Positions 5,935 to 56,496 of a stretch of DNA of 61,206 nucleotides are shown here, in pieces. Source of the stretch: Candidatus Poribacteria bacterium (GTDB lineage: Bacteria > Poribacteria > WGA-4E > WGA-3G); assembly GCA_021295715.1 (NCBI GenBank), contig JAGWBV010000038.1, forward strand, positions 1 to 61,206. The letters run 5' to 3'. The notes below the pieces were generated by a model. The model saw only the letters and a list, made by a program, of their open reading frames with translations. It searched no databases and was not told the origin of the DNA. Positions within the stretch are counted from its first letter, which is position 1; each line of letters opens with the position of its first letter. The position numbers and the translations under genes were made by a program.

Positions 5935-6750
5935 AACGTAGATAATCTCGAACGTATCAACTGCCCAATTTGTGAACGGGATGAAACGAAAGAGTTATTT
6001 AGTAAGGACTCTTTATCGGTAGTCGTCTGCAAGCGGTGTCTGTTGCGTTATGTGAATCCGAGAATCAATCGTGAGACCCTTGAAGACGGGTATGTTGAGA
6101 CTTATTATCCGCCGGATAAAGTAGAACGCATCCATACGGATAGCATGGAATGGTTGCAGATGACGGAGCGTCTCGCTGAGTTAGAGAAACAGCATCAGCG
6201 TAGGGGGCGGCTTTTAGATGTAGGATGTGGTATTGGGACGTTTCTGCATCTCGCTCGCGAACAGGGGTGGGAATCCCACGGCGTTGACCCTTCCAAGAGT
6301 GGTATCACTTTCGCAGAAGAGATACATAAATTAGATGTGAAGTGTGGAGAGGTCTTTGATGCGGGTTTTCCGACTGCGTATTTCGATGCAATTACACTCT
6401 ACCATGTATTGGAGCATATCCCGGAATTAAATCCATTCCTCAGCGAGTTACGCCGGATTCTGAAGCCTCAGACAGGGACCCTTGTCATTGAGGTACCAAA
6501 TGGTGAGGGTTTGCAGAGCCGTCTTCAGAAAGCGGAGTGGCCCTATGTCCATCCGCACGATCATCTCTACTATTTTTCTGCGCGTTCCTTACCGAAATTA
6601 CTTCGGAAACACGGTTTTCAGGACATTACACTGGGAAAACCAAAGCGCGTTAGCCCGACATTTGGGATCGGTTTCGGACTTCGTCAAGCAGCGACTGCTG
6701 CCTTGGTTCGGTTCCATTTAGGGACAGTGATTCGAGTGTATGCGAGTTAG
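5932..6750 (+). CDS. Class I SAM-dependent methyltransferase with N-terminal zinc ribbon
   Basis: About 272 residues. An N-terminal zinc knuckle (CPICERDE near 11, CKRC near 34) precedes a Rossmann methyltransferase core. Motif I is LLDVGCGIGTFLHLA (about 98-112), followed by GVDPSKSG, the post-I region FDAITLYHVLEHIPEL and the C-terminal PHDHLYYFSARSL. This architecture is typical of methyltransferases acting on sugar or lipid-linked substrates (Methyltransf_23-like, often in glycan loci), but no glycan genes are adjacent. The start is a TTG at 5932 placed right after the leader repeat; no good ATG lies upstream of the zinc ribbon. The substrate cannot be inferred. Confidence 0.8.
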   Translation: MNVDNLERINCPICERDETKELFSKDSLSVVVCKRCLLRYVNPRINRETLEDGYVETYYPPDKVERIHTDSMEWLQMTERLAELEKQHQRRGRLLDVGCGIGTFLHLAREQGWESHGVDPSKSGITFAEEIHKLDVKCGEVFDAGFPTAYFDAITLYHVLEHIPELNPFLSELRRILKPQTGTLVIEVPNGEGLQSRLQKAEWPYVHPHDHLYYFSARSLPKLLRKHGFQDITLGKPKRVSPTFGIGFGLRQAATAALVRFHLGTVIRVYAS

Positions 6751-6760
6751 GAGGTTCGCT

Positions 6761-7237
6761 TCACGATTTCGGTTCTTGATAAGAGAATGTTTGAATGACC
6801 TCGTTCATGAGCAGTCGCTGTGCAATCGTCTCAAGCACTTCCGTATTTAGCGTGCCAGTGAACCAGTATTTATGTCCTGTGCGGACAGTGGTGACACCCG
6901 CGATGCCTAAGTCTGTGATACCTTTAACGGTGCTATCACCGACTGCATCCGTAACACCCGGCTTGAATTGCACTTCAAGGGTCCAATCTGTCTCGGTATC
7001 ATTTTCGGTACCAAAGGTGTAGGCTTGTGTAATGGGATCAGCGAGGAGTTCAGTACCGATTCGATCAATCGTTTCTGCGTCAACGGATCCTTCGATCCAG
7101 TAGACCGTGGCTGTGTGCACAGAATTAATACCATTAATACCGAGATCGGTTATATCCTCAAGAATGCCTTGTCCAACGGTATCGGGGACTTCAGGTTTAT
7201 AATAAACTTCAACTTTCCAGTTTTTCATAGTATTCAT
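6761..7237 (-). CDS. Tandem PurS-like protein
   Basis: 158 residues composed of two homologous halves (about 5-75 and 83-153). Each half has the pattern (V/L)E-V-x-(Y/F)-KP-x-V-x-D-x-V-G, then DLGI-G, a V(H/R)T segment and YW-(I/F)-(E/T)-G. This resembles PurS, the small subunit of phosphoribosylformylglycinamidine synthase, normally about 80 residues and dimeric; here the dimer appears fused in one chain. No purL or purQ is adjacent, so a role in purine synthesis is unproven. An alternative start is ATG 7228. The neighbouring genes are unrelated and convergent. Confidence 0.65.
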   Translation of the reverse strand: MNTMKNWKVEVYYKPEVPDTVGQGILEDITDLGINGINSVHTATVYWIEGSVDAETIDRIGTELLADPITQAYTFGTENDTETDWTLEVQFKPGVTDAVGDSTVKGITDLGIAGVTTVRTGHKYWFTGTLNTEVLETIAQRLLMNEVIQTFSYQEPKS

Positions 7238-10442: not shown

Positions 10443-10471
10443 CTTTTTAATTTCCCTTGCGGAGAAACGAC
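10443..10471 (+). repeat. TTGCGGAGG leader motif, copy b
   Basis: Reads CTTTTTAATTTCCCTTGCGG then AGAAACGAC, directly followed by the ATG of the short ORF at 10472. On the opposite strand it lies 12 bases upstream of the prmA start. Confidence 0.7.
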
Positions 10472-10558
10472 ATGCGTTTAAACTATCAAGTGCGTGTCTT
10501 AAACCTGAAGAAACACCCTATCAAAAACCCTGCGCCGTTGTTGCAGGCTGCCGTTTAA
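10472..10558 (+). CDS. Short ORF behind TTGCGG leader (28 aa)
   Basis: ATG after a GGAG Shine-Dalgarno opens 28 codons, MRLNYQVRVLNLKKH, then a tail NPAPLLQAAV. The tail is shared with the short ORF at 17952-18047 (NPPAPLLQAT), and the first residues with that at 34892 (MRFNFCVR). The tail is encoded by the CCTGCGCCGTTGTTGCAGG hairpin repeat. Conservation across copies could reflect either a peptide or repeat DNA. Confidence 0.4.
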   Translation: MRLNYQVRVLNLKKHPIKNPAPLLQAAV

Positions 10559-11785: not shown

Positions 11786-12637
11786 CTATCCAGTAGTGTC
11801 AGTAGCATCTGTATCATCCGACACGTCGTCTGATGCTTCTTCTTCGGTAGATCCTTGTGAGACGACAACTTGAGAGGCGCGTAGAACACGGGTGTGCAAC
11901 ATGTAGCCACGCCGAAATTCCTCAATAACTTTTCCCTCTGGGACATCATCGGATGCTGTGACCAAGAGTGCCTCGTGTTGATTCGGATCGAACGTTTCAC
12001 CAACTGCTTCAATCGGTGTGAGTCCATGGATTTTGAGGGCATCTAAGAGTTGTTTATGAACGAGGTGCACGCCTTCGTTGAAGGTTGTGAAAGTTGGAGA
12101 CGTATCACTTGTCTCGCCTTGTTCTGCTGCGCTTTTGATCGCGGCTTCCATGCTGTCCAAGACGGGAATCATGCCTTCTAAAATCCCCTCATTGGCGAAT
12201 TTGAGTTGCCGTTGATAATCAGTTTGCAAGCGTTTTTTGGTATTCTCAGCTTCCGCTGCTGTGCGTAGGAGACGATCGCGTTCTGCTCTGTATTCCTCAT
12301 GGACATGTTGCACGGCAGTTTCTACTTCTTTTTCGATCTCTGTGTGCAATAAATCTTCGCGTTCTGTTTCGTATTGCTCGCGTACCCTTTGCACGATCGC
12401 CTCGACTTCTTCTTTGACTTCCGAGGTGAGGTTGGCAGCCGTTTTTTCGACAGGCGCGATGCGTTCTTCTATCTCCTTTTTTACTTCCGATTTGACTGTA
12501 TCAAGTGCCGTCTCCGCGATCTCTCGCATCCGTTCGACAAGTGTTTTTTCTTTGCCGTCGGTGGAATCGCTATCGGCAGACACCTCTGTTTCTGTCTCTT
12601 CTTCTGTTTCTATGTGTATTTCTTTAACTTCAGCCAT
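11786..12637 (-). CDS. grpE: Nucleotide exchange factor GrpE
   Basis: A 283-residue GrpE, longer than the usual 170-220. The C-terminal half carries the GrpE core: AENTKKRLQTDYQRQLKFA on the long helix, then VHLVHKQLLDALKIHGLTP, GETFDPNQHEALL and EFRRGYMLHTRVLRASQVVV. The first 120 residues form an unusually long acidic, Glu-rich coiled coil with an internal near-repeat (EVKEEVEAIVQRVREQY versus EKEVETAVQHVHEEY). The C-terminal tail is also acidic. GrpE exchanges nucleotide on DnaK. No CIRCE-type operator is visible upstream, so the heat-shock control mechanism is not evident. Confidence 0.95.
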   Translation of the reverse strand: MAEVKEIHIETEEETETEVSADSDSTDGKEKTLVERMREIAETALDTVKSEVKKEIEERIAPVEKTAANLTSEVKEEVEAIVQRVREQYETEREDLLHTEIEKEVETAVQHVHEEYRAERDRLLRTAAEAENTKKRLQTDYQRQLKFANEGILEGMIPVLDSMEAAIKSAAEQGETSDTSPTFTTFNEGVHLVHKQLLDALKIHGLTPIEAVGETFDPNQHEALLVTASDDVPEGKVIEEFRRGYMLHTRVLRASQVVVSQGSTEEEASDDVSDDTDATDTTG

Positions 12638-17955: not shown

Positions 17956-18047
17956 GAAATTATTCCTTCCAATGTTTGAATCAAAGACGTAGCCTGCAAC
18001 AACGGCGCAGGCGGATTTAAGAAAAGCACATGATAGATGGGACGCAT
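17952..18047 (-). CDS. Short leader ORF coupled to ompH (31 aa)
   Basis: ATG 18047 follows TTGCGGAGGAACACC, a full GGAGG Shine-Dalgarno seven bases away. The frame reads MRPIYHVLFLNPPAPLLQAT and ends IQTLEGIIS, with its TGA overlapping the ompH ATG as ATGA. The sequence is related to the short ORF at 10472 (shared PAPLLQA tail). Coupling is inferred from the overlap. It lies just after the bamA terminator, so it may be the first translated frame of an ompH-lpxD transcript. Confidence 0.5.
   Translation of the reverse strand: MRPIYHVLFLNPPAPLLQATSLIQTLEGIIS
17991..18012. repeat. CCTGCAACAACGGCGCAGG hairpin, copy 1
   Basis: GCCTGC and GCAGGC flank the loop AACAACGGC. The same stem-loop core occurs at 18076-18096 and, in reverse orientation, at 10529-10548. 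Here it lies inside the short ORF upstream of ompH. Confidence 0.7.
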
Positions 18048-18075
18048 GGTGTTCCTCCGCAAGGTAAAATTAAAA
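18048..18075 (-). repeat. TTGCGGAGG leader motif, copy c
   Basis: Minus strand reads TTTTAATTTTACCTTGCGGA then GGAACACC in front of ATG 18047. It is the best match to the motif consensus and begins within the T-tract of the bamA terminator. Confidence 0.75.
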
Positions 18076-18101
18076 CCCTGCAACAACGGCGCAGGGTTTT
18101 T
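18072..18101 (-). terminator. Intrinsic terminator after bamA
   Basis: A perfect 10-bp stem AAAACCCTGC (18072-18081) / GCAGGGTTTT (18091-18100) encloses a 9-base loop AACAACGGC. It lies 16 bases after the bamA stop, and on the minus strand it is followed by TTTTAATTTT. The A/T ends also allow bidirectional action. Confidence 0.75.
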
Positions 18102-18116
18102 GCAATTCGCGAACGA

Positions 18117-27469: not shown

Positions 27470-29158
27470 CTAAGAATGTCTACGACGCGCCCATATTATG
27501 ATTTGACTGCCGAACCATGCAACGCAAATAAGCGTGCAAAGCATCGGAAACCAGTCGCCGTAGCGGGTATAAAGTGTCTGTTCATGTTCCGTGGATGAAA
27601 GAAGTGGGACGGATGCGATGAGAATTTCCTGAGCGGTGTCAGGTGTAATCAACGAAGTTGTTATCCTACCAAACTTGTCCACGACGCACGTAAATCCACC
27701 ATTTGCGCATCGGAACACGGCAATTCGGTTCTCAATCGCGCGGAAAGGTGCCATGGATAGATGTAGTTCGGGAAAAGCAGTGCCTTTGAACCACGCATCG
27801 TTCGTGAAGATGCCCATCACTCTGGCACCCATTTTTACGGGTCTGCGAAATTCATCTGGAAACACGGATTCAAAGCAAATCGAAGCACCGACCTCTATCT
27901 TCCGGGTGTTTGTCTTATTTTTAACGTCAAACACCGGTAAAAGGTTTACTGTTTTTCCGTGAGCGAAGGGTTCAAATTGGATAAAATTGGGGATAAAATC
28001 CGGCAGAAGGTGTGCCAGAGGCACGTATTCACCAAACGGAACGAGATGCATCTTTGCATAGTCCCCGTGTATCTTACCATCTGGGGCTATTGAAAGGACG
28101 CGGTTGTATATTTCCGTGTTTCTTTTATCAGCACTTTTGGAAAATTGACCTATCGCTGCGTCTGTTTCTCCTCGATTCGCGGTCCCGAGGAGCATTGGAA
28201 TTCCTATATCACGGAGCATCAACGAGAATCTTCTGTAGTATGTGGGCCACTCGCCTGTCAAGGCCCTGCTGCGTGTTGCAGTTTCGGGCCACACAATTAA
28301 CTCAGGATCTTCTCTGCTGGCTTTATGTGTCAATTCGATATAGCGTTGCAAAATCTGTGGGAACTGACGGAGATCCCATTTCTGAAGTTGCGAGATATTG
28401 CCGGGAATGAGCGCAACTTTTAAGGTCTCGACGTTTGTGTGTGTCGTTGCGTTTGTGCGCTGGTCTAAGGCGTTAGCGTTTTGGAGTTGGCGTATCCCGT
28501 AACCGAAACAAAAAAGCATCAGGATCAGTGGCAGGACTACAGCGCGAATTTCTTCTCGCCAGTGATGACGGTTACAAAACAGATGAGCGATAGCGGCATT
28601 GAAAAGCACGATGACGAAACTGATACCATGAACACCAACAAGCGAGGCGACCTGTATACCCAACAGATTATTCCATTGCGAATAGCCGATGCTTCCCCAT
28701 GGAAATCCTGTTATCATCCAGCTCCGCACCCATTCTAATGCTGTCCAGATACATGCAGCGGACAGAGAAAATAGGACGCTGGAATGCCTCGGCACAAACC
28801 GCATCAGCACTGCAAAAACGGCGAAATAAAGTGCCGTGTATCCCACTAATAATAGGTATCCGACCATTGTGGCGAAAATATTCGCATACGGATAGAGAAG
28901 GAGGATGGCAGGGAGCAGACCTGCGAAGAACAGAAAACCTGTTAGGTAACCGATCCAAAAGGCGGATTTCCGGCTTGTTGCGCGGGTCAGAGCAATGAAG
29001 AATGGCACCATCGCGACCCAAGCAACCGGAAAGAGATTTAAATTTGGGAAACTGAGGAATAACAGGAATGCTGAAAGTACCGCGAGCATCCAGTGTTGGT
29101 AGCATTTCAAAATTTTAATTTTCCTTGCGGAGAAACGACGTGGATTTGGGTCATTCAA
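27470..29158 (-). CDS. lnt: Apolipoprotein N-acyltransferase
   Basis: About 562 residues with a multi-helix membrane domain (LSAFLLFLSFPNLNLFPVAW onward) and a nitrilase-type periplasmic domain. The catalytic triad regions are WPETATRSR (Glu), KMHLVPFGEYVPL (Lys) and VGASICFESVFPDE (Cys). A C-terminal transmembrane helix follows. Lnt adds the third acyl chain to lipoproteins, consistent with lolC/lolD nearby. The start is uncertain: TTG 29158 overlaps the stop of the upstream gene (TTGA), TTG 29110 follows AAGG of the leader repeat, and an ATG begins MLAVLSAFLLFL. Confidence 0.93.
   Translation of the reverse strand: MNDPNPRRFSARKIKILKCYQHWMLAVLSAFLLFLSFPNLNLFPVAWVAMVPFFIALTRATSRKSAFWIGYLTGFLFFAGLLPAILLLYPYANIFATMVGYLLLVGYTALYFAVFAVLMRFVPRHSSVLFSLSAACIWTALEWVRSWMITGFPWGSIGYSQWNNLLGIQVASLVGVHGISFVIVLFNAAIAHLFCNRHHWREEIRAVVLPLILMLFCFGYGIRQLQNANALDQRTNATTHTNVETLKVALIPGNISQLQKWDLRQFPQILQRYIELTHKASREDPELIVWPETATRSRALTGEWPTYYRRFSLMLRDIGIPMLLGTANRGETDAAIGQFSKSADKRNTEIYNRVLSIAPDGKIHGDYAKMHLVPFGEYVPLAHLLPDFIPNFIQFEPFAHGKTVNLLPVFDVKNKTNTRKIEVGASICFESVFPDEFRRPVKMGARVMGIFTNDAWFKGTAFPELHLSMAPFRAIENRIAVFRCANGGFTCVVDKFGRITTSLITPDTAQEILIASVPLLSSTEHEQTLYTRYGDWFPMLCTLICVAWFGSQIIIWARRRHS
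29111..29139. repeat. TTGCGGAGG leader motif, copy d
   Basis: Plus strand reads AATTTTAATTTTCCTTGCGG then AGAAACGAC and GTG. On the minus strand it lies within the extreme 5' end of lnt, providing CGCAAGGAAAATTAAAATT just before TTG 29110. Confidence 0.65.
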
Positions 29159-34848: not shown

Positions 34849-34891
34849 TTTTACCTTGCGGATTTTTAATTTTACCTTGCGGAGGAACAAC
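34843..34891 (+). repeat. TTGCGGAGG leader motif, tandem copy e
   Basis: TTTTAATTTTACCTTGCGGA occurs twice in immediate succession (34843-34862 and 34864-34883), the second followed by GGAACAAC and GTG 34892. The first copy contains the stop codon of the DUF5683-like gene. Confidence 0.75.
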
Positions 34892-34981
34892 GTGCGTTTC
34901 AACTTTTGCGTGCGTTCCGTATATCCGCTCTCCATTCCATTACGAGCTACGGGGTTTGAGACTATTGTAACGCCAGTTTGA
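34892..34981 (+). CDS. Short ORF behind TTGCGG leader (29 aa)
   Basis: GTG 34892, preceded by GGAGG at seven bases, opens MRFNFCVRSVYPLSIPLR and ends TGFETIVTPV. The N-terminal MR-x-N-(Y/F)-x-V(R) pattern is shared with the ORF at 10472. Nothing else is known. Confidence 0.4.
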   Translation: MRFNFCVRSVYPLSIPLRATGFETIVTPV

Positions 34982-48335: not shown

Positions 48336-50744
48336 ATGCGATTCACCTATTTCTTGCCAGGGTGGGTAGTTGTACTCAGTATCGGCGTTGTCATCGGTAT
48401 AACGGTGTTTGTTTATTTTCGTATGGCGCGTTCATTACACCCGAGGTATAGATTCTTGCTCATTCTGCTGCGGATCACTGCAGCGTCGATTCTGCTCGGT
48501 TGTCTCTTAGCCCCTGTTATCATTGAAAAGAAAGACATCACACCACCGACACACCTCTCTATTTTGGTTGATACCTCGCGCAGTATGCAACTCGTTGATA
48601 CCTCTATGAGCGAGATACCTATGTCAAGACTGAGTCAGGTGAATCAACTGCTTTTCAATGTCCCCGGGCAATTCCTGCAAACCTTACAAGATAAATTTGA
48701 GATTCATCTCTACCCTTTCAACACGCGACTGCAACAAAGTGTTTTGTTAGCACAAGCGGATGATTCTCCAATGCCGCCGTTTGAAGCAGAAGGAAACCTT
48801 ACTGATATCGCAAATGCTATACGGGGTGCTGCAGCGGCATGGAAGGGGCAACAAACTGCCGGTATTGTCCTTATTACAGACGGGGCACACAATTCTGGAC
48901 AGTTTCCTGTGGAGACGATCACCGAATTAGGAGTGCCGATCTATCCAATAGGTGTCGGTTCTGTGGAACCGCCAAAAGACATTCAGATTCAGGGTGTCAA
49001 TTACACGCCAATTGCTTACACAGACCATGAGAGTGTTATTCGTGTGACCGTTGTGCAAACAGGCTACACCGGCAAAACGACCCAGTTGTCTTTACGGGAA
49101 GTAGAAAGTAAGGATCTCGTGGATGCTGTAACGTTTACCTTCAACGCGCATCAGGGAGTAAACGCTGTCGATGCCGGCGCGAAACAGGTGATTGAGTTGA
49201 AATTGACACCGCAGTCAGAAGGTAACTTTCAATACACGGTTACACTTCCGATGCTTGACGGTGAACTCACGGAGGCGAACAATCAAAAGACGTTTTCGGT
49301 GAAAGTTGTGAAAGCCAAGTTGAACGTTTTTTATTTGGAAGGCAGGCCCAGGTGGGACTATACTTTTTTAAAACGGACATTGGAACGAGACCCGGACATT
49401 GAGGCTACCTGTGCAATTTTAGCGTCTCATAGATTAAAGAAATTCCCTGTAGGTAGCCTCCTCAATCGTTTAGATGGATATTATCCGCAGGCGACTCCGG
49501 TATCGGAGACCCCTCAGTTCCCTGAAACGCTTGCTGAACTTTCTAAATACGATGTTCTGATTTTAGGTGATGTGGGGGCTGAGCATCTTACTGAAACCCA
49601 GCAACGTGCAATCGTCGATTTTGTTGAGACGCAGGGAAAACCGGTTATCTTTCTACCTTCTCGGAACATGCTTGGCGTGAATGGGTTCGGGAATACAGAA
49701 TTAGCACCTCTTTTGCCGATTGACATCCCCAGTAATGGATGTCATGTAGAGGATACAGAATTTACGCTGCAATTAACCGAATCTGGTGCATTTCACCCGA
49801 TGTTGCAACTTGATGACCGTCAGAACACACAAACGGATAAAACTGTGGTGTTGGGTGAAAATAGCGTAAGTTTGTGGCGGAATATGCCAGCGTTGCCGCG
49901 ATCCTTCAGTGGATTTCGTCTCAGGGGTGGCGCGATGGCTTTGATGGAAAATGGGAGAGGCATGCCTATTCTGATTCTTCAGAGAGCAGGTTTAGGCAAA
50001 AGCCTCCTTATCGCCGCGGAGGGCTTCTGGAATTGGGATTTTGGTGTTAAAACATTTAAAGATAGCCGTTATCACACAATCTATGCTCGTTTTTGGGCAC
50101 AGGTGCTGCGATGGATGGCAACAAATACCGATGACAAGAATGTGTATCTTACGACAGATGCCTCTACCTATGCAATAGGGGATACAGTGAAGGTCACAAC
50201 ATATCTCTATTCTGAAACCTATCAACCTCAAGCGGGAGCAACAGTCGAGATCGAAGTCGTACCGCCTGATGGAGATCCTTTCCAGTTCCAGATGAATGCA
50301 ACGGCTGGAAGCACAAACCGGTCTGGAATGGAAGAGGGGAAGAATGGAAGAGTAGATGCCCATCCTTCCACCCTTCCTTCCTTCCATTATACCGCCCAAT
50401 TTGTGCTACTGCGAAAGGGGAGGTACCGCATTCGCGCAATCGGTAGGCGTGACAATCTGAAATTAGGTGAAGATCAAACAGATATTTATGCTCATCCACA
50501 GCTTGCCGAATTAGAGAACCCGCAGCTCAATGAAGACTTACTAAAGCAACTTGCTGAACAAACCGGTGGCACCTATTTTACAATGGCTGACGCAGAATCG
50601 GTCCCTGAAAGCATTGCGAATGTCCAAAATCCGATATTTGTTGATGCAGAACGCGAACTTTGGGCACATCCATTGATTCTGATCACAGTTGTCGGATTAT
50701 TAGGGACTGAATGGTTTTTGCGTAAACGGGTTGGACTGACTTAA
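48336..50744 (+). CDS. vWA-domain membrane protein (BatA/glutamine amidotransferase-like type)
   Basis: 802 residues. Two N-terminal membrane helices (GWVVVLSIGVVIGITVFVYF and FLLILLRITAASILLGCLLA) precede a von Willebrand A domain with MIDAS LVDTSRSMQLVD and TAGIVLITDGAHNSG. Ig-like segments follow, then an amidotransferase-like Rossmann region (KLNVFYLEGRPRWDYTFLKR, YDVLILGDVGAEHLTETQQ). The C terminus has one helix (HPLILITVVGLLGTEWFL). A palindromic DNA repeat is read in frame at about residues 664-684 (MEEGKNGRVDAHPSTLPSFH). Such proteins belong to MoxR/DUF58/vWA gene sets thought to act in envelope protein assembly; MoxR and DUF58 are not in the window. Confidence 0.85.
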   Translation: MRFTYFLPGWVVVLSIGVVIGITVFVYFRMARSLHPRYRFLLILLRITAASILLGCLLAPVIIEKKDITPPTHLSILVDTSRSMQLVDTSMSEIPMSRLSQVNQLLFNVPGQFLQTLQDKFEIHLYPFNTRLQQSVLLAQADDSPMPPFEAEGNLTDIANAIRGAAAAWKGQQTAGIVLITDGAHNSGQFPVETITELGVPIYPIGVGSVEPPKDIQIQGVNYTPIAYTDHESVIRVTVVQTGYTGKTTQLSLREVESKDLVDAVTFTFNAHQGVNAVDAGAKQVIELKLTPQSEGNFQYTVTLPMLDGELTEANNQKTFSVKVVKAKLNVFYLEGRPRWDYTFLKRTLERDPDIEATCAILASHRLKKFPVGSLLNRLDGYYPQATPVSETPQFPETLAELSKYDVLILGDVGAEHLTETQQRAIVDFVETQGKPVIFLPSRNMLGVNGFGNTELAPLLPIDIPSNGCHVEDTEFTLQLTESGAFHPMLQLDDRQNTQTDKTVVLGENSVSLWRNMPALPRSFSGFRLRGGAMALMENGRGMPILILQRAGLGKSLLIAAEGFWNWDFGVKTFKDSRYHTIYARFWAQVLRWMATNTDDKNVYLTTDASTYAIGDTVKVTTYLYSETYQPQAGATVEIEVVPPDGDPFQFQMNATAGSTNRSGMEEGKNGRVDAHPSTLPSFHYTAQFVLLRKGRYRIRAIGRRDNLKLGEDQTDIYAHPQLAELENPQLNEDLLKQLAEQTGGTYFTMADAESVPESIANVQNPIFVDAERELWAHPLILITVVGLLGTEWFLRKRVGLT
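50327..50388. repeat. In-frame palindromic element, copy 1
   Basis: AATGGAAG (50327-50334) pairs with CTTCCATT (50381-50388). The left half is GGAAG-rich and the right half CTTCC-rich (CATCCTTCCACCCTTCCTTC). It is read through in the vWA gene without breaking the frame. Confidence 0.75.
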
Positions 50745-50752
50745 ATGGCTAT

Positions 50753-50785
50753 CGGCTGTCAGCCGTCAGCCGTCGGCAAGAGGGG
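50753..50785. repeat. CAGCCGTCAGCCGTCGG repeat
   Basis: CGGCTGTCAGCCGTCAGCCG followed by TCGGCAAGAGGGG resembles the CGGCAGTTAGCAGTCGGCGG block with TCGGTAAGAGGG at 39811-39841. It is a second dispersed intergenic repeat family. Confidence 0.5.
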
Positions 50786-50793
50786 AAACGTGA

Positions 50794-51579
50794 ATGAAAG
50801 GATGGAAGAAAATATTGAACGATTGGAAGATTGGAAGATTGGAACGGTGGACACTTATCCTTCCATCTTTCCTGCTTTCCATTTCCAAGCCGAAAGCCGT
50901 TTTACGAAACTCTTTTTGGATCTGTTGTTTCCTTTTTTGCGCTGTGGTAGGTGTGCAGATGAAACGGAGTTTACAGGCTTCCGATGTCCCGATAACTATC
51001 GCCCAAATCCACTATAGTGGTGGCGGTGATTGGTATGGTGACGCGACAACGATCAAAAATTGGCTTCAACTCCTCCGAAACCGAACAGATATTGAAACCG
51101 CTAAGGATAGAGTGATTATTAAGCTGACCGATCATACCCTTTACCAATATCCGATACTCTATTTGGTAGGGCATGGGAATATCCGATTGACTGAAGGTGA
51201 GATTGAGGCATTGCGGGATTATCTCAAGAACGGTGGTTTTCTGTTCGCGAACGATGATTACGGGCTTGACAAGAGTTTTCGGCGTGAAATGCGAAGAGTG
51301 TTTCCAGAGCAGGAACTACACCCTATCCCAAACACGCATCTGATTTATCGCTGTTTCTACGAACTGAAAGGACTACCTAAGATTCATGTACATGACGCTG
51401 AGCCCGCACAAGGGTTTGGGCTTTTTCATGATGGACGTATGGTCGTTTACTATGCCTATAGTGCGGACATCGGGGATGGGCTTGAGGATGCCGATGTGCA
51501 TCCAGACGATACACCTCAGGTTCGCGAACTCGCAGCGAAAATGGCGGTAAATATTGCTGTATATGTGCTGACCCACTAA
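50794..51579 (+). CDS. DUF4159-type protein
   Basis: 261 residues. The conserved domain starts near PITIAQIHYSGGGDWYGDAT, then ILYLVGHGNIRLTEGEIEAL, YLKNGGFLFANDDYGLDKSF, GFGLFHDGRMVVYYAYSADI and a C-terminal MAVNIAVYVLTH, all typical of DUF4159 proteins that accompany vWA/MoxR loci. A hydrophobic stretch FWICCFLFCAVVGV (about 43-56) serves as signal or anchor. The first 35 residues (MKGWKKILNDWKIGRLERW) come from a copy of the palindromic repeat, so the original start may have been replaced. It overlaps neither neighbour and is 13 bases from the next gene. Confidence 0.82.
   Translation: MKGWKKILNDWKIGRLERWTLILPSFLLSISKPKAVLRNSFWICCFLFCAVVGVQMKRSLQASDVPITIAQIHYSGGGDWYGDATTIKNWLQLLRNRTDIETAKDRVIIKLTDHTLYQYPILYLVGHGNIRLTEGEIEALRDYLKNGGFLFANDDYGLDKSFRREMRRVFPEQELHPIPNTHLIYRCFYELKGLPKIHVHDAEPAQGFGLFHDGRMVVYYAYSADIGDGLEDADVHPDDTPQVRELAAKMAVNIAVYVLTH
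50797..50888. repeat. In-frame palindromic element, copy 2
   Basis: GAAAGGATGGAAG (50797-50809) is complementary to CTTCCATCTTTCC in the right half. The interior repeats GATTGGAA. It forms the 5' end of the DUF4159 coding frame. Confidence 0.7.
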
Positions 51580-51592
51580 AGGACGAAATGAA

Positions 51593-54500
51593 ATGGATGG
51601 ACAAAATGTGAACGAGGCTTACGGAAACCTCATTGATCGGCTGCGTGCGATTCAACGACAGTGGCGCTGGCTCATTTTCTCTGAGGGATTCCTGAAGTGC
51701 ATCGGTATTGTGGCACTCGTGATTGCGGGGACACTTATCGTTTTAACAGTGAGTTTCCAATTATGGCAGTCTCCTTTCTCACGCTGGATACGAATTGTGA
51801 TCCTCCTGTTATCAATAAGTGGTGCTGTCTATGCTGTCATCCGATCGTTCGTTCTGCCCCTCTGTCAGAAATTGACGGACGCGGCTGTTGCATCGCGCCT
51901 TGAATCGACGCAGACAGAAGCATCCTTCGCTACTGAAAACCGGATTCTCAGTGCTATACAGCTCCGGAAAAACTTGACGGATAACCCACTCGGATATGCC
52001 CCTGAGTTTATTGAACACCTTATCGTTCAAGCCAGTCAAGATGTAGAACAGATTCAACCCAAGCGAGTGTTCCAGACTGAGTTTCGGAAAGTTCGGCGGA
52101 ATGCTGGTATTGCTGTCGTGGGCGTGGTGTTTCTCTGGGGTACACATCTTCTTTTACCTACCGCTTTCATGGGATTTGCGAGGACCTTTGAGACTTTACC
52201 AACGGCACTGCAAGAGGATTCTGTTTATCTGAAAGACTCCATTCAAATTACAGACATTCAACCCGGTAGTATCCAGATTGAACGAGGGAGCCATGTTGGT
52301 ATAACCGCCGAAGTAAACGGACACTTCGACGCGCCTGTTTCACTCTACTATCGTGTTGGAAGTCGCGATGAGGCTACACCCACTGCGGAATGGCAATCCC
52401 TACCAATGCATCGTAACCCCATTGACACTGGTCACATTTCGCAAACAATCGAGATTTTATCGCCGCATAGCGCACTTCTTGAGAATGTTACACGTCCGCT
52501 TCAATATTATATTTCTGTCGAAGAGGTGACATCGGAACAGTATCAAATAACGATCAGTAATGAACCGATTGTCACGCAGTTCCAGTATCGACTTAATTAT
52601 CCTTCTTACACGCAGTTACAGTCCCAGACCCTCCCCGCAAATGTCGGGGACATACAAGTGCTTTCCGGAACAGAGGTAGTGTTCACAGGGGAGAGCAATA
52701 AACCGCTTCAGAAGGCACACATTGCTTTTGATGCATCTGGTAATGTGGAATTGGAGGTTACGGAGCGGCAATTACAGGGGACTCCTACACAGGATAGAAG
52801 GATGGAAGGATGGAAGGATGGAAGAGCGGAAGGATGGGCACCCACTCTTCCACCCTTCCCCTCTTCCATGCAAGGGTCTTTCGTTGCTCGTCAGAGTGAA
52901 AATTATCGTATCCACATTACTGATAGTGATGGGTTCACGAATCGAAACCCCGTGAGTCGGACGATTACTGTTTTTGAAGATACCGCTCCCGATGTCAATA
53001 TTGTCGCACCTGCACGGGATACCGTGTTAGACGATGCAATGTTGATCGCGCTAAAGGTGGAGGCTACAGACGACTACGGCATACAGGAACTTCAATTGGT
53101 ATACCGTATTGAGAGTGAAGGTGCTGAAGAGGTAAATGTGCCTTTAAAACGTTGGGAGTCTGGGGATGCGCTCTCACACAGATCGGTTTATGTAGCATAC
53201 ACGTGGGATGTTGATCGGATTGGCATGTTCCCCGGCGAAACGCTCGCGTATTACGTTCAAGCCTTGGATATTGATGATGTCTCAGGACCGAATATCGGTA
53301 AGTCTCATACCTATACCCTCCGTTTTCCTTCTCTCTCGGAGTTATATGACGCTGTTGCTGCGGAACAGGAAACCGAACAACGAGGACTTGAGGAACTCGT
53401 TGACGAGCAGGCAGATGCGACGGGTCTGGTTGACACGCTCCTTGATAAAATCAGGAAGAGCCAGGAACTTACCCTCAATGACGAAAATCTGATGCAACAA
53501 GTGCTTGAGAATCAGAAGCAGATTGAGGAATCGGCGAAGCAACTCATCGAAAACATGCAGGAGACAGCGGAAGAGATGGAACAGAACCAACTCTTTGACG
53601 CTGAGACGATAGAGAAGTATCAAGAACTGCAATATCTCATGGAGAAAGCACTTTCCGAAGAACATAAAGAACTCCTACAGAAATTATCAGAGGCACTCGC
53701 CGAACAGCAGGTGGATGAGCAGGAGCGGTCGATGGCGGAAGCGAATCTCAGTCAAGAGCAGTTTTTACAGCAATTGGAACGTGCCAAATCGCTCTATGAA
53801 CAGATTCTCCTCGAACAGGAACTCGAAGCGGCAGTGAAACAAGCAAAGGCACTCGCTGAACAGCAGAAGCAGTTGATGGATACATTGGAGTCGTCGGGAC
53901 AGTCCGCACCTACAAGCGATCTCGCAGAAAAAGAGGACCGAGTGGCGGATGAATTCAATGCGCTTAGCGGAAAGTTAGAGGAACTCGGCACAAAGATGGG
54001 CGAACTCGCTAAAAATCAAGAGAACGCACCGCCGCAAATAGAACGACTTGCGGATGAAATTCTTCGACTCAATGCGTTTGCGCACGAGCATAAACTGCCT
54101 GAGATGCTTGAAGCGACGAGTGAAAACCTCCGACGTGGAGAAAATAAGGAGGCACTTGAATCTGGACGGGGTGCAGAACAGACACTCACAGAATTCGCAC
54201 AGGGGTTGGATAACGCCTTGGCGTTCATGGAAGGGGCAAACGCCAACGAAACTTTGACCGCCCTACAGGAAGCCGTTGAAAGTGGGCTTCACCTCTCACA
54301 TCTCCACGAGAAAGTCCTCATGCAAACGAACGACATCCTCACCGCTGGGCAGTCTGATGCTTACATTTCAAGTGAGATTGTGCGATTGCAACACCTCGCT
54401 GCGGATGAACTCAGTACGGCGGAGAGTCTCACGCAGCTTTCCAGTAAACTTTGGAATTTAGGCAACCGACAGATACAAGTGCCACCTGAAGCTATATTCC

Positions 54501-55225
54501 ATCTTAATGCTTCTAACGATGCCCTTTCTCGTGCCGCCCGTGCTTTAGAGGATCGGCAGCCAAGCCTCGCTGTCCCGATCCAAAAATCCGCGCTCGCTGA
54601 TCTTAATCAGGCGGTTTTTGAACTCCTTGAGGCGATGGGACAGATGAACCAACAGATGGGTGCCAGCGGGTTTGAAAACATGATGGAACAGTTGCAGCAG
54701 CTCGCTGAGAGTCAAGAGCAGCTCAACGAGATGGCACAGAATCTGAATCAGCAGATGCGGGAACAGGGACGAACCCCAGGGATTGAGCAGATGATGCGTC
54801 AACTCGCTGCGCAGCAGCAGTTGATCCAAGAGGCAACTGAACGGATCGCTGAGCGTGCAGAGCAGATGGCGCAGGTTCTCGGTAGTCTCGAAGATGTTGC
54901 TGAAGAGATGGCTCAGGTTGAGAAGTCGCTTCGTCAAGGTGAACTCAATGAGGACGTTCTTGAGAGACAGGCGCAAATTCTGACGCGGATGCTTGACAGT
55001 TTAAAATCGTTGCAGAAACGAGATGTCGGTAAACAGCGCAAAGCAGAGGTCGCGGAGAGACCCGAAGCACCTGCACAGGAAGTGCCGCCTTTGCATCCTG
55101 AGCTCCTCGAAGTCGTTCGGAAATTAGAAACCACACCTTATGCCAAGGAATTTGAAGATATTCCATTCCAGTATCGGAAGCAGCTTCTACAGTACTTCAA
55201 AGCATTGTCCCAGAAGACACAGTGA
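51593..55225 (+). CDS. DUF4175-like giant membrane coiled-coil protein
   Basis: 1210 residues. Two N-terminal helices (IVALVIAGTLIVLTVSFQLW, IRIVILLLSISGAVYAVIRS) and a third near 175-195 precede periplasmic Ig-like domains. About 600 residues of Gln/Glu-rich coiled coil follow (LMQQVLENQKQIEESAKQLI, QMMRQLAAQQQLIQEATERI). The architecture matches DUF4175/TIGR02302-type proteins found with vWA and DUF4159 genes. Residues around 400-425 (RRMEGWKDGRAEGWAPTLPP) are encoded by a palindromic repeat inserted in frame. It is probably a structural envelope protein. ATG 51593 is chosen; MDGQNVNEAYGNLIDRLRAI is amphipathic. Confidence 0.82.
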   Translation: MDGQNVNEAYGNLIDRLRAIQRQWRWLIFSEGFLKCIGIVALVIAGTLIVLTVSFQLWQSPFSRWIRIVILLLSISGAVYAVIRSFVLPLCQKLTDAAVASRLESTQTEASFATENRILSAIQLRKNLTDNPLGYAPEFIEHLIVQASQDVEQIQPKRVFQTEFRKVRRNAGIAVVGVVFLWGTHLLLPTAFMGFARTFETLPTALQEDSVYLKDSIQITDIQPGSIQIERGSHVGITAEVNGHFDAPVSLYYRVGSRDEATPTAEWQSLPMHRNPIDTGHISQTIEILSPHSALLENVTRPLQYYISVEEVTSEQYQITISNEPIVTQFQYRLNYPSYTQLQSQTLPANVGDIQVLSGTEVVFTGESNKPLQKAHIAFDASGNVELEVTERQLQGTPTQDRRMEGWKDGRAEGWAPTLPPFPSSMQGSFVARQSENYRIHITDSDGFTNRNPVSRTITVFEDTAPDVNIVAPARDTVLDDAMLIALKVEATDDYGIQELQLVYRIESEGAEEVNVPLKRWESGDALSHRSVYVAYTWDVDRIGMFPGETLAYYVQALDIDDVSGPNIGKSHTYTLRFPSLSELYDAVAAEQETEQRGLEELVDEQADATGLVDTLLDKIRKSQELTLNDENLMQQVLENQKQIEESAKQLIENMQETAEEMEQNQLFDAETIEKYQELQYLMEKALSEEHKELLQKLSEALAEQQVDEQERSMAEANLSQEQFLQQLERAKSLYEQILLEQELEAAVKQAKALAEQQKQLMDTLESSGQSAPTSDLAEKEDRVADEFNALSGKLEELGTKMGELAKNQENAPPQIERLADEILRLNAFAHEHKLPEMLEATSENLRRGENKEALESGRGAEQTLTEFAQGLDNALAFMEGANANETLTALQEAVESGLHLSHLHEKVLMQTNDILTAGQSDAYISSEIVRLQHLAADELSTAESLTQLSSKLWNLGNRQIQVPPEAIFHLNASNDALSRAARALEDRQPSLAVPIQKSALADLNQAVFELLEAMGQMNQQMGASGFENMMEQLQQLAESQEQLNEMAQNLNQQMREQGRTPGIEQMMRQLAAQQQLIQEATERIAERAEQMAQVLGSLEDVAEEMAQVEKSLRQGELNEDVLERQAQILTRMLDSLKSLQKRDVGKQRKAEVAERPEAPAQEVPPLHPELLEVVRKLETTPYAKEFEDIPFQYRKQLLQYFKALSQKTQ
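52794..52869. repeat. In-frame palindromic element, copy 3
   Basis: GAAGGATGGAAGGATGGAAG units on the left and CACTCTTCCACCCTTCCCCT followed by CTTCCAT on the right form an imperfect palindrome around GGGCACCC. It is open in the DUF4175-like frame. Confidence 0.75.
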
Positions 55226-56442: not shown

Positions 56443-56466
56443 TCAGGCATAAAAGTCTAAATGCAC
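56443..56466 (-). CDS. Minimal short ORF behind TTGCGG leader (7 aa)
   Basis: GTG 56466 follows TTGCGGAGAAACAAC and gives only MHLDFYA before TGA. It is listed because the start context is the same as in the longer short ORFs; translation is doubtful. Confidence 0.2.
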   Translation of the reverse strand: MHLDFYA

Positions 56467-56496
56467 GTTGTTTCTCCGCAAGGAAAATTAAAAAAG
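56467..56496. repeat. TTGCGGAGG leader motif, copy f
   Basis: Plus strand reads GTTGTTTCTCCGCAAGGAAA then ATTAAAA, 14 bases before the slipin ATG. On the minus strand it reads TTTTAATTTTCCTTGCGGAG. Confidence 0.7.

Follow-up and report, generated by a model that had tools for sequence, protein, structure and literature searches.

Octamer palindromes in the vWA-DUF4159-DUF4175 operon

The window, that is, the whole stretch of 61,206 nucleotides analysed here (Candidatus Poribacteria contig JAGWBV010000038.1), contained an operon of three consecutive genes predicted to encode a vWA-like protein, a DUF4159 protein and a DUF4175-like protein. In Pfam searches, DUF4159 was strongly supported (E 1e-58) and DUF4175 scored marginally above its cut-off, while VWA_2 and MG2 fell below theirs. 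Each gene was associated with a palindrome built from an 8-nt unit, TGGAAGNN, and the second palindrome lay within a heptamer element. The features of the region are as follows.

48336..50744, + strand: vWA-like gene, 802 aa, with an in-frame octamer palindrome at residues 663-685
50323..50388, no strand: octamer (TGGAAGNN) palindrome 1, inside the vWA ORF; conceptual translation SGMEEGKNGRVDAHPSTLPSFHY; fold z -4.6
50752..50779, + strand: 5' arm of a heptamer (TCRGYNN) palindrome, TCGGCTGTCAGCCGTCAGCCGTCGGCAA
50794..51579, + strand: DUF4159 gene, 261 aa, putative start codon
about 50796..50890, no strand: octamer palindrome 2, nested in the heptamer element and forming the DUF4159 N-terminal extension
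50889..50899, + strand: heptamer 3' arm remnant GCCGAAAGCCG, 3' of octamer palindrome 2 and below the strict arm detector
51593..55225, + strand: DUF4175-like gene, 1210 aa, with an in-frame octamer palindrome at residues 401-426
52794..52870, no strand: octamer palindrome 3; conceptual translation DRRMEGWKDGRAEGWAPTLPPFPSSM; centre TGGGCACCCA; fold z -5.6

The initial annotation had described a palindromic repeat inserted in frame in three consecutive genes and translated without a stop. Palindromes were indeed present at these three places, the ORFs were continuous and stop-free across all three copies, and no other cluster of TGGAA/GGAAG words with their complements occurred in the 61-kb window. 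In-frame insertion held for the copies inside the vWA and DUF4175 genes, whereas the middle copy, with a weaker fold (z -1.7), formed the start of the DUF4159 gene and not part of its interior. The orthologous ATG used by congeners was missing from this gene, the frame of which opened at 50794, the octamer edge; because of this absence, the ATG at 50794 was taken as the candidate start; alternatively, translation would begin near 50959 and the signal segment would be missing. The operon has more copies than expected from the genome-wide density, and the co-occurrence of three, as annotated, is genuine and out of the ordinary. The vWA and DUF4175 copies, which are mutually inverted, were the most similar pair among the 27 octamer copies examined, a post hoc observation that is only suggestive of local spread.

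The operon was aligned with those of 20 congeners. The octamer inserts were absent from most of these orthologues, and the sites corresponded to hypervariable linkers or to the N-terminus. At the vWA site, the octamer was found in 0 of the other 20 orthologues; G010 possessed a TCAGC-type heptamer palindrome, G008 and G017 possessed TCGGT-type heptamer sequence, and the remaining congeners had short ordinary linkers. At the DUF4175 site, related octamer sequence was observed in G001, G007, G009, and G010 and in none of the other 16 aligned congeners, the frame being open in 23 of 23 congeneric orthologues. Upstream (5') of DUF4159, where the heptamer palindrome is located, G010 had a heptamer palindrome at the same site with no octamer. 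The insert sites in vWA and DUF4175 fell in the least conserved 25-residue window of each protein, and when element-bearing genomes were excluded they still ranked 4 of 791 and 68 of 1246, respectively, for low conservation (12-residue windows). Comparison with orthologues lacking the insert, the check proposed in the initial annotation, thus supported the insertion state, and distant orthologues carrying the same peptide, which would have spoken for ancestral sequence, were not found. These alignments indicate that the three inserts are insertions and not ancestral protein sequence. Presence and absence were clear, but the turnover of spacers between species was so great that it blurred the edges, and about 20 octamer sites that were compared yielded no clean empty site.

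Architecture, coding capacity and distribution of the octamer palindrome

The left arm of the palindrome consisted of tandem TGGAAG plus two free bases, the right arm of the complement of this unit, and the centre of a sequence close to GGGNNCCC, typically TGGGNNCCCA. Copies measured about 45 to 105 bp and had only the unit core and the centre in common, so that the notion of one conserved repeat sequence had to be given up, conservation being confined to a 5-6 nt core. The first spacer base was a purine in about 85-93% of the units, while the second could be any base. Adjacent units had identical spacer bases in 33 of 84 cases (0.39 versus 0.12 expected), suggesting that the arms grow by tandem duplication. 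Spacers in opposite arms were complementary no more often than by chance (0.459 observed versus 0.467 in shuffled data); thus, the palindrome consists of the 5-6 nt cores only, and copying of one arm from the other, from which complementary spacers would be expected, was rejected. Palindromy limited to the cores is not what recent copies of a single master element usually show.

Fold z was below -2 in 20 of the 21 intergenic copies. These copies were free of stops in 117 of 126 six-frame readings (93%); the corresponding share was 40% in random intergenic 66-mers and 20% in heptamer elements. Since 8 shares no factor with 3, every frame of an octamer array runs through one and the same hydrophilic cycle of residues (WKDGRMEG or LPIFQSSN, for instance); the period of 8 therefore accounts for the shared peptides without selection on the peptide. 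These two properties, a unit with almost no stops in any of the six frames and a frame-independent peptide cycle, explain tolerance in genes and make the survival of coding copies likely.

Copies in the 5.14-Mb genome were counted by pattern searches, in about 460 kb of sampled sequence and in targeted stretches, genes in the sampled stretches being called with a simple codon-usage script. Seven octamer palindromes were found in 400 kb sampled outside the window, corresponding by extrapolation to about 90 per genome; a reversed-word control gave 0 clusters in 461 kb, and the pattern TGGAAGNNTGGAAGN{8,34}CTTCCA had 27+34 matches in the genome versus 0 for the backward pattern. Although the sample was about 81% coding, 19 of the 23 copies outside the window were intergenic, 3 were inside genes, and 1 formed a gene start; octamer palindromes are thus depleted in genes. 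All four coding copies were in frame with no internal stop. By Pfam, the L088 copy was placed between TPR and FG-GAP repeats and the L099 copy between two ABC ATPase domains; those of L106 and L092 preceded a POTRA domain and CtaA, respectively, the L092 copy with a likely start codon inside the element. The family is mainly intergenic in the Poribacteria genome studied and therefore not a coding-targeted element. Insertion into coding sequence by members of a dispersed family of palindromes, each with tandem-octamer arms, was accordingly supported, but a general targeting of genes was not borne out; tabulation of the frames showed that coding copies leave the frame open and that no single frame is common to the copies.

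The palindrome was present in most congeners, with strict-pattern matches ranging from 0 to 67. It was rare in sister families of the order and common in G053, a member of another family of the class. Among the matches listed, those in named genomes were mostly from Candidatus Poribacteria, scattered in sponge-associated members. A stricter two-sided pattern, a scan that reports presence and not abundance, gave among the matches listed Anaerolineales and other Chloroflexi, Bacteroidetes, Rhodothermaceae, and Acidobacteria, as well as Gemmatimonadetes, Verrucomicrobia, Armatimonadetes, Pontibacter, and Stutzerimonas. For TAACTGA heptamers, MacGregor 2015 (PMC4679880) described a similarly patchy occurrence among Beggiatoaceae, Cyanobacteria, and Bacteroidetes that had no obvious mechanism. 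Strict octamer palindromes numbered zero in G045, G049, and G051, which offer a natural comparison for finding the mover.

Association with heptamer palindromes and a MITE family

Palindromes of the heptamer unit TCRGYNN numbered hundreds in the genome; strict four-unit arms gave 214 matches in the genome studied, 365 in G010, and 197 in G018. A heptamer arm was situated within 90 bp of 8 of the 27 octamers, versus 8.1% of random intergenic positions. The junction heptamer-AAGAGAC|TGGAAT, or a near-identical one, recurred at the unrelated loci L100, L101, L106, and L108, and the 5' edge of the vWA octamer, CTGGAATGGAAGAG, was the junction of heptamer-octamer composites seen at other loci. The DUF4159 octamer had a clear heptamer arm on its 5' side and the remnant of one on its 3' side. 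At a number of orthologous sites (vWA, L088:15759, L094, L096, L101:2738, and L108), an octamer in one species corresponded to a heptamer in another; at L088:15759, for instance, G001 had an octamer with adjoining heptamer units, G000 the octamer only, and G018 the heptamer only. Differential decay of composites is the simplest reading of this alternation, and replacement is an alternative. A strand or replication bias of the heptamer arms, indicated by 25 versus 3 single-arm clusters in the 461-kb sample, was rejected as sampling, since whole-genome counts were 123/91, 181/184, and 105/92 and orientation was mixed along the complete G018 genome. In a separate observation, an in-frame heptamer palindrome was located at L092:1448-1532 in a CtaA/COX15-like gene; it was also present in G010 and absent from G017, G018, and G001.

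Three octamers resided within elements with the ends AGGAYTTACGCA...TGCGTAAGTCCT (L311, L312, and L315, the last without a recognisable right end). The left end had 22 matches, in most of which the right end followed at a distance of 310 bp or less, with differing hairpins in between. In 14 of 19 elements, at least 4 of the 5 positions of the flanking 5-mers agreed (mean 2.7 and maximum 10 in 2000 shuffles). The AGGACTTACGCA-ended shell has 5-bp target duplications; thus, a true MITE family carries the octamer at some places. Of the octamer carriers with both ends, L312 had a 4/5 flank match and L311 did not. Bare octamers showed no target duplication, a 5-mer being shared in 4 of 27 versus a shuffled mean of 1.8, and the duplications belong to the MITE family. 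Members L311-L332 of this family were about 90-310 bp, mostly with 5-bp target duplications, and their internal hairpins, namely the octamer palindrome, GGTGCGGTT..AACCGCACC, and CCCCCTAAATCCCCCTTATCAGGGGG, were interchangeable.

Relation to known repeats and probable origin

The repeat had been likened to the Rickettsia palindromic elements (RPEs), which are described as about 150 bp long, grouped in defined families each with a conserved peptide, and located in ORFs in nearly half of the cases (Ogata et al. 2000, 2002, via PMC10969869). Compared with RPEs by description, the octamers are likewise dispersed palindromes that occur in frame in unrelated genes and add a peptide to the protein. 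Hairpin formation was predicted for the vWA and DUF4175 copies and 20 of 21 intergenic copies, and weakly for the DUF4159 copy; in-frame occurrence in unrelated genes applied to two genes of the window and to L088, L099, and L106, as well as to the starts of DUF4159 and L092. On the other hand, the octamers, at about 45-105 bp with core and centre only in common, have neither the length nor the family consensus and peptide of RPEs, and only 4 of 23 copies outside the window were in or at the start of genes. They also differ in being nested with other palindromes and MITEs, which the analogy does not cover, and in belonging to another host phylum. As two defining features of RPEs are lacking, the octamers are better assigned to a broader kind, dispersed palindromes entering coding sequence. 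The octamer is RPE-like in its working but is not an RPE, and it is linked to TAACTGA-type heptamers and to the MITE family.

In the accessible text of MacGregor 2015 (PMC4679880), the TAACTGA heptamers are short-unit repeats, mostly intergenic, with some at the protein edges of ORFs, and patchy across unrelated phyla, in all of which they resemble the octamers. The complement, TCAGTTA, fits the TCRGYNN pattern of the heptamers adjoining or surrounding octamers; tandem TAACTGA/TCAGTTA was indeed found in the accompanying heptamer palindromes (TCAGTTA/TCGGTTA arms) and not in the octamers. According to the same text, TAACTGA repeats are direct, with one indirect, whereas both arms of the octamer form a palindrome, and TGGAAGNN is not among the repeats given there (PMC4679880). 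Forward TAACTGA repeats generate stops, whereas the octamer is nearly stop-free. Some octamer palindromes resemble bacterial MITEs as cargo of the AGGACTTACGCA-ended family with its 5-bp target duplications, but bare octamers, including the vWA and DUF4175 copies, have neither such ends nor detectable target duplication. Heptanucleotide hairpins with tandem 7-nt units in inverted arms exist in cyanobacteria (STRR and tRNA-Leu intron repeats); as generally described, they differ from the octamer in unit sequence and host. A literature search for the exact octamer motif gave, among the matches listed, only unrelated papers.

We consider it likely that each of the three inserts is one copy of a small repeat module that forms hairpins, is non-autonomous, and is dispersed in the genome and tolerated in linkers and N-termini. 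The module, with its two facing arms of short tandem TGGAAGNN arrays around a GGGNNCCC-like centre, would be propagated as selfish or hitch-hiking DNA and would chiefly enter intergenic spacers, travelling alone or as the inner part of heptamer palindromes or TIR-bearing MITEs. Its arms may lengthen and shorten by tandem duplication, presumably through slippage. Coding copies would persist only at tolerant sites, such as inter-domain linkers and N-termini, and with a frame-keeping length, while out-of-frame or domain-breaking copies would be removed by purifying selection. At a gene start, an octamer may supply a new start codon and an N-terminal extension.

Alternatively, the palindromes may be functional RNA or DNA signals under selection (terminators, mRNA stabilisers or protein-binding arrays), with the coding copies as by-products. 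The conserved intergenic core could be a sign of function: the GGAAG/CTTCC core is kept while the spacers vary, the hairpins are strong, the majority of copies occupy short spacers, frequently from a few bases to some tens of bases 3' of a stop codon, and translational regulation has been proposed for the related TAACTGA heptamers in Beggiatoaceae (MacGregor 2015, PMC4679880). However, close species gain, lose, and swap elements at orthologous sites, and three congeners had no octamer by the strict pattern. Copies between co-directional genes (17 of 21 intergenic copies) were about as frequent as such gaps (206 of 266), and those at convergent ends (3 of 21) showed no strong concentration as would suit terminators. 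An Rfam search of the octamer gave no family above the gathering score and only sub-threshold miRNA hairpins. This alternative is therefore regarded as unlikely. A purely local origin, by in-place replication slippage and template switching with no dispersal of copies, would agree with the homogeneity of units within arms and with the lack of target duplications in bare copies, but appears somewhat less probable again, since one and the same TGGAAGNN core is found at numerous unrelated loci and across many phyla, composite junctions are repeated at unrelated loci, MITEs of a target-duplicating family carry the module, and no two of the 27 copies match better than those of vWA and DUF4175.

As short, high-copy, mostly extragenic palindromes, the octamers resemble REP/REPIN sequences (PMC3116915, PMC3733652), and Y1 transposases were present in 25 of 25 genomes tested. 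Movement as REPIN-like elements by a Y1 (RAYT/IS200-type) transposase is nevertheless very improbable, since a single Y1 gene was found in the genome versus dozens of octamer copies, and octamer and Y1 counts were uncorrelated (Spearman -0.01 across 24 congeners); Y1/RAYT as the mover was thus not supported. The octamers also differ from REP/REPIN sequences in their tandem-octamer arms, and no GTAG/CTAC or GTAG/CGTC-type foot tag was apparent in the flank composition. That the inserts are ancestral protein sequence, repeat-rich by chance, is hardly credible in spite of similar acidic/glycine-rich peptides at the DUF4175 site of G001, G007, G009, and G010, for the remaining 16 DUF4175 and all 20 other vWA orthologues lack them or the octamer, respectively, and the same DNA motif occurs intergenically and in all frames at other loci.

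On the module reading, small palindromes have repeatedly gained entry to coding sequence in frame outside Rickettsia as well, and a simple cause is suggested: if a unit is free of stops and its length is not divisible by three, each frame yields an identical peptide. Modular nested palindromic repeats are common to distant phyla, which bears on how TAACTGA-type repeats spread. More tentatively, and with the balance of probability against it, palindromes with tandem arms of 7-9-nt units (TGGAAGNN, TCRGYNN, CTCCGCGNN, and others) might form one cross-phylum class of interchangeable, nesting hairpins, which in Poribacteria would be a continuing source of new linkers and translation starts through the readability of the octamer in every frame.

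Several other repeats were observed. Two palindromes at 408-557 and 1030-1157 of the window, within one intergenic spacer, had arms of 9-nt units (TTCTCCGCG / CGCGGAGAA) and represent another tandem-arm family. Octamer palindromes at L074:15678, L081:17341, and L103:1991 were located within another repeat with AAGCAAGTTTCAATATT in its ends. Short segments at L092:8887-9040, 6683-6789, and 11964-12076 recurred many times in congeners, with identities of up to 98%, and probably represent further MITE families. Repeats of TTTTAATTTTCCTTGCGGAGAAACGACGTG were found in both orientations at 10445-10547, 18011-18102, 29113-29147, 34856-34928, and 56454-56494 of the window.
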